DNA from: Nitrospira sp.
GTDB lineage: Bacteria > Nitrospirota > Nitrospiria > Nitrospirales > Nitrospiraceae
DNA length: 64,000 bases
NCBI GenBank assembly: GCA_024998685.1
Contig: JACOEH010000002.1
Coordinates: 1-64,000, forward strand
Direction: 5' to 3'
The notes beneath the pieces were generated by a model, which was not told where the DNA came from, made no database searches, and saw only the letters and a program-made list of their open reading frames with translations. The translations under genes were made by a program, and so were the position numbers. Shown one piece after another: positions 29,139 to 32,741 of the stretch. Every line of letters begins with the position of its first letter. The first letter of the stretch is position 1.

Positions 29139-30947
29139 TTAGGCAAGAACCGCTATGGAAGAGGAGTCCGAAATAATCTGGTCTATTTCCAGCCCATCCA
29201 ACACCTCTTTTTCCAAAAGCGATTCCGCCAGCGCCTTCAAAGTCACCATGTGTTCGGTCAGGACGCGTTTGGTCCGTTCATAGTTTTCTGTGATGAGGCG
29301 TTTGATTTCTCGATCAATCTCCAACGCCATTTCATCACTGACATCTCGCTTGCTCCCAAAGGAGCGACCGAGAAACATCGATTCTTCTTTCTGCCCGAAC
29401 GTCAACGGCCCCAGCTTTTCACTCATGCCCCATTCGCAGACCATTTTACGCGCGAGGTCAGTTGCACGCTCCAAATCGTTGCCCGCGCCGGTTGTGACAT
29501 GTTTGAACACCAGTTCCTCTGCGACTCTACCACCGAGGAGAATCGCCAGCGTGTTGTACAAAAACTCTTGGGAATGATTGTGACGATCCTCGGTCGGCAA
29601 CTGCATGGTCACGCCTAATGCCCGGCCTCTCGGAATAATTGATACTTTGTGGACAGGATCGGTGCCCGGCAGGAGTTTAGCCATCAAGGCGTGGCCTGCC
29701 TCGTGATATGCGGTGACTCGCTTTTCTTCGTCCGTGAGCATCATGCTCTTGCGCTCAACGCCCATCAAGATCTTGTCCTTGGCCATGTCGAAGTCTACGG
29801 CTCCGACTTCGTTCTTGTTCTGACGAGCAGCCCAGAGCGCAGCCTCATTGACTAGGTTTTCCAAGTCCGCGCCTGAAAAACCGGGAGTTCCACGAGCGAT
29901 CTTCTCCAATTCTACGTTATCTGCCACCGGGACTTTTTTAATATGCACCTTAAGGATCTCCGAACGGCCTCGAAGGTCCGGATGATTCACCACCACTTGC
30001 CGGTCGAATCGACCTGGCCTGAGCAAGGCCGGATCGAGCACATCGGGCCGATTGGTCGCGGCAACCAGAATGACCCCCTCCGTCGTCTCAAATCCATCCA
30101 TTTCGACTAGCAACTGGTTGAGCGTTTGCTCACGTTCATCGTTTCCACCGCCGAGCCCCGCTCCCCGCGATCGTCCGACGGCATCGATCTCATCGATGAA
30201 AATAATACAGGGCGCATGCTTTTTCGCTTCCTCGAACATATTCCGCACGCGAGAGGCCCCGACGCCCACGAACATTTCGACAAAATCCGACCCGCTGATG
30301 CTGAAGAAGGGGACGCCCGCCTCGCCCGCAATGGCCTTCGCCAACAAAGTCTTCCCGGTTCCCGGTGGGCCCACGACCAACACCCCCTTGGGAATGCGTC
30401 CGCCGAGTTTTTGAAACTTGCGCGGATCCTTGAGAAACTCAACTGTTTCCTGTACCTCCTCTTTCACTTCATCAATTCCCGCCACATCGGCAAACGTCAC
30501 TTTTTTCCGGTCATCTGTCAGCATGCGGGCCTTGCTCTTCACGAGGGACAGGGCCGCATTTCCCGTCTGCATCCGGCGCATGAAGAATACAAACAGGCCG
30601 AGAAAGAGTACGAGCGGCCCCCAGGTCACGAGAAAACTCATATACCAAGGGCTTTCATCGGGTGGTTTGACCTCGATCTGCACGTGCTTCTCTCGCAGCA
30701 CCTGGACGAGATCAGGATAGTCCGCCGAGTACGTTCGAAGCCGGGAGTTATCTTTCAGCACAGCGTTGACAAGATGTCCCTTGATGGTCACCTTTCCGAC
30801 GTCGTCATTCTCGAGCTTCGCCATGAAATCACTAAAAATGACCTGCTCCTCCAATACAGGGGGCGCCATCGTCCATAGATTCAGAAGTAGTAGTATGAAC
30901 AGGCCTATCACCGTCCAAAACATTATTTTTTTGGTTTTGATATTCAA
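29139..30947 (-). CDS. ftsH: ATP-dependent zinc metalloprotease FtsH (602 aa)
   Basis: FtsH extracts and degrades membrane proteins and some soluble regulators. Two N-terminal membrane helices (about 9-27 and 105-123) flank a periplasmic domain. The AAA domain has Walker A GPPGTGKT near 195, Walker [13 protein letters not shown] and the second region of homology [20 protein letters not shown]. The protease has the zinc motif HEAGH near 417 and a distal aspartate. The start appears to be TTG 30947 after AGAGG. It is the next gene after the lone amoC on the same strand, across 156 bases, so the two may be co-transcribed; FtsH could control turnover of membrane-bound AmoC. The length is slightly below the usual 610-650 residues. 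Confidence 0.95.
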
Positions 30948-31103: not shown

Positions 31104-31931
31104 TTAGTACCCTGCCTTGGCGTTGGGGTTCACCTGGCTGGGGAACGGATCAAGAATGCTCTTCGGCGCGTTGTTCCAGATCACGTCTGCCAAATTCGAC
31201 ATCCGGCTCACGATCTGCGCCGCCACTCCGCCTGCGGCTCCGAACAACCCGCACCAGCCCAACGTCACAAAGCCCCAGTGCAACGGTGCCGAGAACAGCT
31301 CATCCACAAACCAGAAGGCATGGCCCCACTCATTCAAACCCACGTTCGGCAGAATGAACATTGGTCCCACCACTGCCGCCACTAAGGCAAATGAGGTTGC
31401 CTGGCTGTACAATGGCAACCGCGTCTGCGCATACAGGTAGGTCGCCACGCCGCACGTGATGTACAGCGGGAACGTCCCGTAGAACGCCACGATATGGCTC
31501 GCCGTGAAGCTCGTGTCCCGGATGATCACCTGGTGCCACGCCGCATCCTGCTCCAACGTGTAGCTGCCCGCGTAATACACACCCCACATGTAACAAACAA
31601 GCCAGCCCATCCAATAAAAATACCGCTTCAACTCCAGCTTAGGGGCTAGATTGGCTAAGTTCCGATCCCGCGTCACCCAGATCCAGCCGATTGTCGTGGC
31701 AAAGAACACTGCGTTCGCTAAAATGTTAAACCGCCACAGCCCCATCCACACCGAGTCAAACTCCGGGGTCATCGAATCCAAGCCGTGCGAGTACCCGAAC
31801 GCCCGCTGGTACAGCACCCAGAAAATCCCGATCCCCAGGATAGCTAACCAGCCGATCTTCACCGGCTTCGAGTCATACCACTCCGAGGTGTCATATCCTC
31901 TCTCATTCTTGGTTTGAGTTGAGGATTCCAT
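31104..31931 (-). CDS. amoC: Ammonia monooxygenase subunit C (AmoC), not linked to amoA or amoB (275 aa)
   Basis: AmoC is a membrane subunit of the copper enzyme that oxidises ammonia to hydroxylamine. It has about six membrane helices after a charged N-terminus. The conserved metal-site residues are present: D129 and H133 in EQDAAWH and H146 in [11 protein letters not shown]. Their 4- and 13-residue spacing equals that of D156, H160 and H173 in Methylococcus capsulatus PmoC. The flanking RDTSFTASH and [11 protein letters not shown] are typical of the family. No amoA or amoB is present; the neighbours are a 47-residue membrane protein, ftsH and a divergent marR. Lone amoC copies are known in ammonia oxidisers, where at least one is linked to stress recovery. 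The protein looks functional. Confidence 0.95.
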
Positions 31932-31986: not shown

Positions 31987-32130
31987 TCAACCTGCATAAC
32001 GGTAGGCTGCCGTTAAAGCTCCTACGACTAACCCCATTAACCACCCCCATTTGTATAGCGTTGCATCTTCGGGTTTTTCTTCTAAAGCGCCAGACCGGCG
32101 CGCATTGGTTGATTGCATATGTGTCGCCAT
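31987..32130 (-). CDS. Single-helix membrane protein upstream of amoC (47 aa), unknown function
   Basis: The chosen start, ATG 32130, has an excellent ribosome binding site (GGAGGAGGT at 32135-32143, five bases away). An ATG at 32169 in the same frame has none and lies inside an operator-like palindrome. The product is hydrophilic for about 28 residues (QSTNARRSGALEEKPEDATL) and ends in one membrane helix (YKWGWLMGLVVGALTAAYRY). It is 55 bases before amoC on the same strand and downstream of a strong promoter, so it is the first gene of the amoC transcript. It could be a small accessory subunit or assembly factor for AmoC. I do not recognise a family. Confidence 0.75.
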   Translation of the reverse strand: MATHMQSTNARRSGALEEKPEDATLYKWGWLMGLVVGALTAAYRYAG

Positions 32131-32162
32131 GTACACCTCCTCCGGGGTTAGGTTGTTATATT

Positions 32163-32202
32163 GGGGCATATGCCTGTATAAAAGGGGAATATGCCCTTAT
32201 AT
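32163..32202 (-). promoter_or_regulatory. Tandem operator-like repeats 21 bases apart
   Basis: GGGGCATATGCCTGTATA (32163-32180) and GGGGAATATGCCCTTATA (32184-32201) are direct repeats offset by exactly 21 bases, two helical turns. The first contains a perfect palindrome GGCATATGCC; the second lies in AAGGG-N7-CCCTT (32182-32198). They cover the predicted transcription start of the amoC unit and end beside its -10 box. The divergent MarR protein is the obvious candidate to bind them. Confidence 0.65.
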
Positions 32203-32227
32203 TACTCGCGCACATATTTAGTGTCAA
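32199..32227 (-). promoter_or_regulatory. Promoter for the small gene-amoC unit
   Basis: Read on the minus strand, TTGACA (32222-32227) and TAATAT (32199-32204) are 17 bases apart, close to the sigma-70 consensus. Transcription would start near 32192, inside the operator-like repeats, leaving a leader of about 60 bases before the small gene. Confidence 0.7.
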
Positions 32228-32231
32228 GACA

Positions 32232-32260
32232 TTGGAAAACAGTCGAGAACGTCATATAAT
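32232..32260 (+). promoter_or_regulatory. Promoter for marR
   Basis: TTGGAA (32232-32237) and TATAAT (32255-32260) are 17 bases apart. Its -35 box lies only four bases from the -35 box of the leftward amoC promoter, so the two promoters stand back to back and should influence each other. Confidence 0.7.
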
Positions 32261-32288: not shown

Positions 32289-32741
32289 GTGAGCTGCATG
32301 GTTAAACAAATCTCGTCACACGTTCCGTGCTACTGCGCAGTCTTGCGAAAAGCCGTCCGCCGCGTGTCGGTTCTCTATGATGCGAAACTCAAGGATTCCG
32401 GGCTAAAGACGACTCAGTTCTCATTGTTAGGGGAGCTACGTAGACACCGCACAGCACCTCTGACCATGAATGAATTGGCGGAATACCTGGTGATGGACCG
32501 CTCAACGCTTGGGCATAACTTGAGACCACTTCTGCGCAGGCGCTTAGTGGCTCTAAAGCCTGATGCGGTTGATGGACGAACACGGCGTGTGACGATCACC
32601 GCAAGGGGTGAAGCCAAATTTGCTAATGCTGAGAAATTATGGGAGAAGGCCCAGAAAGAGTATGAGGCCGTAATAGGGAAGCCCGCCGCAGTCGCACTGC
32701 GAAGCGCCCTGCAGAAGCTGGCTACATCGGACGCTCTCTAA
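32289..32741 (+). CDS. MarR-family transcriptional regulator divergent from the amoC unit (150 aa)
   Basis: This is a winged-helix dimer of the MarR family: a helical N-terminus (VPCYCAVLRKAVRRVSVLYD), a recognition region LTMNELAEYLVMDRSTLGHNLRPLLRR near residues 58-85, and the wing DGRTRRVTITARGEAKF. MarR proteins usually repress divergent genes and release DNA on binding a ligand or on cysteine oxidation. Three cysteines lie in the first 24 residues (SCMVK, PCYCAV), which could serve as a redox or metal switch. It starts at GTG 32289 or ATG 32298; neither site has a perfect ribosome binding site. The divergent layout makes the amoC unit its likeliest target. Confidence 0.88.
   Translation: MSCMVKQISSHVPCYCAVLRKAVRRVSVLYDAKLKDSGLKTTQFSLLGELRRHRTAPLTMNELAEYLVMDRSTLGHNLRPLLRRRLVALKPDAVDGRTRRVTITARGEAKFANAEKLWEKAQKEYEAVIGKPAAVALRSALQKLATSDAL

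Follow-up and report, generated by a model that had tools for sequence, protein, structure and literature searches.

orf47, an overlooked small gene between marR and a non-operonal amoC in Nitrospira, resembles the 5' end of amoC

We identified orf47 as a real, overlooked small gene ahead of a non-operonal amoC in the window, the whole 64,000-nucleotide stretch of Nitrospira sp. DNA analyzed here. Its likeness to its neighbor supports well an origin as a partial tandem copy of the adjacent amoC 5' end that later diverged, and this is the simplest reading of the alignments. By analogy with known small membrane proteins, the product is most likely a short helix that mimics the AmoC N-terminus and tunes either the assembly or the FtsH turnover of a stress-type AmoC. 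The locus contains the following features, given in window positions.

31987 to 32130, minus strand: orf47, a 47-aa small protein MATHMQSTNARRSGALEEKPEDATLYKWGWLMGLVVGALTAAYRYAG, probably copied in part from the amoC 5' end and since diverged
32135 to 32143, minus strand: Shine-Dalgarno sequence of orf47, GGAGGAGGT, with GGAGG kept in all six genomes
31104 to 31931, minus strand: amoC, non-operonal, with a PF04896 match
29139 to 30947, minus strand: ftsH-type membrane protease gene just 3' of amoC; the genome has four M41 genes in all
32289 to 32741, plus strand: divergent MarR-family regulator gene, adjoining orf47 in all six genomes
32199 to 32227, minus strand: predicted sigma-70-type promoter of orf47-amoC, TTGACA-17-TAATAT
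32232 to 32260, plus strand: predicted divergent marR promoter, TTGGAA-17-TATAAT
32164 to 32175, no strand: candidate operator palindrome A, GGGCATATGCCT, containing the ATG of a 60-aa reading
32185 to 32196, no strand: candidate operator palindrome B, GGGAATATGCCC, centered about 21 bp from A

The orf47 frame opens with ATG and closes with TGA after 47 aa, and its ribosome binding site, read at 32143-32135 of the minus strand, ends 4 bases 5' of the start codon. The earlier note on this DNA had proposed these coordinates together with a near-perfect ribosome binding site and a C-terminal helix, and all of them hold, the helix as a prediction. SD-led ORFs also precede other amoC copies, so this arrangement alone is no evidence for a gene. 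The 60-aa reading from ATG 32169 was rejected, as other genomes have no comparable start or are not open in this frame; its start codon falls within a GGGCATATGCCC-type operator, in agreement with the note, and the reading is not conserved.

Orthologues were found in five further Nitrospira genomes at 85, 72, 68, 64, and 57–59% identity. One of them lies in Nitrospira sp. BO4 (JAMPUU010000021), at the same locus as that of genome G065, and this locus was the only match in the general contig database. Homologues next to amoC, whose absence the note had said would count against its proposal, therefore exist. All orthologues are exactly 47 aa long and begin at the same start; none has an internal stop or an indel, whereas the flanks carry indels in the six-genome alignment. 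Codon-aware scoring against column shuffles favored the orf47 frame (z = 3.0, p = 7e-4), with 0 stops observed and 13 expected. This coding signal is concentrated in the C-terminal half, which holds the helix and shows pN of 0.02–0.24 against pS of 0.21–0.53, the near-identical pair G064/G065 excepted. The N-terminal half drifts and is almost unconstrained, its replacement changes accumulating nearly as fast as synonymous ones between close genomes. An alternative frame that scored in this half was discarded for its stops within the sequence set.

These genomes contain many amoC genes, which recombine and leave fragments, and orf47 could be one such partial copy, decaying and kept by chance. 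We consider this highly improbable, since frame and length are intact in six genomes whose synonymous sites differ by up to half, the helix is under purifying selection, and the start signals are kept. Alternatively, translation of orf47 might matter, for coupling to amoC or for mRNA stability, while its product does not. This agrees with its place as the first ORF of the predicted transcript, 55 nt before amoC and behind a very strong ribosome site, with the drift of its N-terminal half, and with leucine codons that are mostly TTA (22 of 33 in the six genomes, compared to 7% in the adjacent ftsH). However, conservation of the helix at the amino-acid level makes a mere leader ORF improbable, and the RNA folds no more strongly than shuffles (z −0.9), has no Rfam match, and has a synonymous rate similar to that of marR, which implies no extra nucleotide-level constraint. 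On the same three observations we rejected an RNA element at orf47. Between several of these genomes, amoC and ftsH display higher synonymous divergence than orf47 and marR, perhaps as a consequence of recombination with paralogues.

The AlphaFold model of the orf47 protein contains a helix from residue 20 to 46 (pLDDT 94 at 31–40) preceded by a loose N-terminus. Within the helix, the orthologues conserve a GxxxG spacing (G33, G37), and their GALTAxYRYA end is strictly kept. The description of orf47 as a membrane protein, also made in the note, is in agreement with the predicted helix but needs qualification, for the hydrophobic core is short (about 15–17 residues between K27 and R44) and moderately hydrophobic, with a best 19-residue Kyte-Doolittle mean of 0.8–1.2 compared to 1.7 for AmoC helix 1. 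orf47 is likely a membrane protein, and a membrane-spanning or membrane-bound helix packing on a partner would fit these properties. A PDB search found no match to orf47 among solved AMO/pMMO chains in a library of chains other than those modelled as unknown residues; PufY of the photosynthetic core (E 2.6) was dismissed as a chance helix match.

Comparison of orf47 with amoC disclosed a resemblance that the earlier note had missed, along with the ftsH downstream. In genome G055, whose orthologue diverges most, the alignment of orf47 with that genome's own amoC begins at the start codon and continues through transmembrane helix 1. Anchored at the start codons, the two share 33 of 48 bases over 16 codons, and the maximum among 18,749 ATG-anchored control starts was 29. 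The corresponding identity was 24 of 48 in four other genomes (p 0.001–0.002) and 21 of 48 in G001 (p 0.02), p values to be read with the six genomes not being independent of each other. Local alignments in G055 gave p 5e-4 for the protein and 0 of 2000 shuffles as good for the DNA, and among windows of about 60 kb of G055 sequence, the best DNA match of orf47 was its own amoC start. The G055 arm is equal in length to the arm of the cassette AmoC, with a tyrosine at the same position, and in the cassette AmoCs, the arm before the YD motif is longer than in most other copies. Profile comparison paired orf47 residues 1–43 with AmoC 1–41, with P 0.0018 in one comparison, a match that is weak alone (hhalign probability 15%, column-shuffle p about 0.01). 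The HMM ranking was compromised, since a number of its loci came from searches with that very query; only its comparison with AmoC, matched at full length, was used.

The likeness to AmoC could also be coincidence or convergence, with orf47 an unrelated small membrane protein; this concerns origin and is compatible with each of the functional readings. The sequence is short, its similarity to amoC is weak in five of the six genomes and reaches significance by itself mainly in G055, and the helix alone finds matches in other proteins as well. Nevertheless, such a coincidence is distinctly unlikely, considering that the G055 match exceeds every control, that four other genomes reach low p values, and that the alignment covers both arm and helix. 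The evidence thus supports common descent with the AmoC N-terminus (PF04896), in G055 and more weakly in the other genomes. The start-to-start alignment extends to the end of helix 1, where orf47 stops without the copper-site helices of a full-length AmoC; its WYD motif is lost, its helix is less hydrophobic, and with no Pfam match at E up to 1, it falls below the curated cut-off of PF04896. We therefore favor a start copied from amoC, comprising the N-terminal arm and first transmembrane helix, that would since have diverged; in G055, orf47 was possibly re-copied from amoC later by gene conversion.

An amoC match was present in 76 of 175 Nitrospiraceae genomes, and orf47 in six of those 76. 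No convincing homologues beyond the six genomes were found in Nitrospiraceae, a 395-genome sample of the phylum, or viral contigs; weak matches in the phylum cover the helix only, several of them inside proteins of about 640 residues. Among the other amoC copies inspected, some of them in the six genomes themselves, none has an orf47 relative upstream, and G076 carries a marR, amoC, and ftsH cassette without orf47, indicating that the cassette can do without it.

These observations bear on the proposal, made in the earlier note, that orf47 is an accessory subunit of AMO. A small gene adjoining amoC is real, but given its rarity and its absence before the other amoC copies inspected, we rejected a general subunit present wherever AMO occurs in the lineage. 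A narrower version would make orf47 a condition-specific, single-helix structural subunit of an AMO form with the non-operonal AmoC. Its constant place beside amoC, the conserved short helix with its GxxxG and strict end, and the extra small helical subunits of archaeal AMO (PMC10030591) are consistent with this; the restriction to 6/76 genomes, the lack of orf47 before the other amoC copies, and the lack of a match among AMO/pMMO chains leave it rather doubtful. The archaeal AmoX, AmoY, and AmoZ are likewise small and helical, with their genes close to amo, but they are general, highly conserved, and seen in native complexes, while orf47 is rare and confined to one non-operonal amoC lineage. 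More likely, orf47 is a helper in building or renewing AMO rather than a general part of it.

In all six genomes, orf47 lies between the divergent marR and amoC, and ftsH follows amoC in the five cassettes with continuing contigs, the G065 contig ending inside amoC. In the window, the gene after amoC is ftsH and not amoA or amoB. Given the predicted promoter, orf47 would come first in the amoC transcript; to this extent the note's placement at the head of that transcript stands, although the amoC concerned is a non-operonal one linked to ftsH and not part of amoCAB. The predicted promoters of orf47-amoC and marR stand back to back. Palindromes A and B, both of GGGCATATGCCC type, lie 3' of the orf47-amoC promoter, and the other five genomes keep the pair. 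Elsewhere, GGGCATATGCCC-type sites, one or two of them, also occur beside related marR genes with a different neighbor; the close relatives at loci L084, L085, L087, and L088 adjoin other genes and keep such palindromes. The motif is thereby tied to the regulator, which suggests one MarR family with a portable GGGCATATGCCC-type operator.

Beyond marR in the window, a TraT-like ORF (PF05818, 32805-33260) matches its profile only from position 66 and seems to lack its N-terminal part; no counterpart was observed next to marR in the other genomes. In the window's assembly, amoA was not found and amoB lies at the edge of a contig (C75, 137-1276), so that its amoCAB operon has probably collapsed or been lost at a repeat.

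Other ftsH-linked amoC or amoC-amoA copies occur in the same genomes. At L050, L057, and L060 (G064, G001, and G055), a spare amoC precedes ftsH behind a LuxR-type gene, recognized by eye from its helix-turn-helix end, with amoA between amoC and ftsH in G064 and G055. At L060 (G055 contig C4), the amoC copy is broken by an in-frame stop and followed by amoA-ftsH. Spare AMO subunits linked to ftsH seem to form a recurring unit, and such linkage extends beyond orf47; no paper in the open-access full-text literature searched brings comammox, ftsH, and amoC together. Spare copies are numerous: the G001 genome has five amoC, and the closed genome of 'Ca. N. kreftii' holds amoCAB plus four non-operonal amoC (PMC8115096). 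In the AmoC tree, four cassette AmoCs form one clade (100/98), and that of G015 (L042) groups with the other copy of the same genome, a pattern that points to concerted evolution of the amoC copies, marR and orf47 having stayed with their lineage. Resolution of the FtsH tree was too poor to date the cassette.

Several known systems resemble this arrangement in part. MgtR and MgtU are small proteins that attach to a membrane target and either favor or prevent its degradation by FtsH (PMC10710835). These partners of Mg transporters are tiny membrane proteins produced alongside the target whose fate FtsH decides, and the orf47 product may resemble them in size and gene context; a difference is that the orf47 cassette itself contains ftsH. 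Of a small helix co-expressed with its membrane target, the synteny and predicted promoter are what one would expect; a helix is predicted, and its hydrophobicity is modest. The amoR gene of Nitrosococcus oceani (PMC7285500) shares with orf47 its position ahead of amoC, but heads a full amoRCABD operon in a gammaproteobacterium. Non-operonal AmoC is a possible stress subunit in AOB according to PMC6311188, which describes AmoC3 of Nitrosomonas europaea as a stress-regulated singleton that is non-operonal under its own regulation, like the cassette AmoC. AmoC3 uses a stress sigma factor, in contrast to the predicted MarR regulator of the orf47 cassette, and the text consulted mentions neither a small ORF nor ftsH.

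Taken as a whole, the account we prefer, tentatively and at somewhat less than an even chance, is that a copied AmoC helix made with AmoC and FtsH sets the fate of AmoC. MarR, bound at the two palindromes just 3' of the promoter, would control an orf47-amoC-ftsH transcript, and induction would supply a substitute AmoC together with a membrane protease and a small helix mimicking AmoC helix 1. This mimic would most likely bind AmoC or the site that receives its helix 1, maybe competing for the place of AmoC, and so decide between assembly of AmoC, its protection, and its delivery to FtsH, in a way similar to MgtR and MgtU with their transporters. A more speculative extension, which we regard as a minority possibility, is a subunit-renewal cassette, where the products under MarR control would be newly made AmoC, an FtsH dedicated to the task, and a mini-AmoC serving as placeholder or adaptor when damaged AmoC is exchanged, in a logic comparable to D1 exchange in photosystem II.

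The locus bears on how nitrifiers maintain AMO and on why they retain spare amoC copies. A regulator-controlled spare AmoC, encoded with a protease and a peptide that is a piece of AmoC, would make AMO turnover testable, and would indicate that the gene of a small membrane protein can arise when its partner is copied in tandem and truncated.
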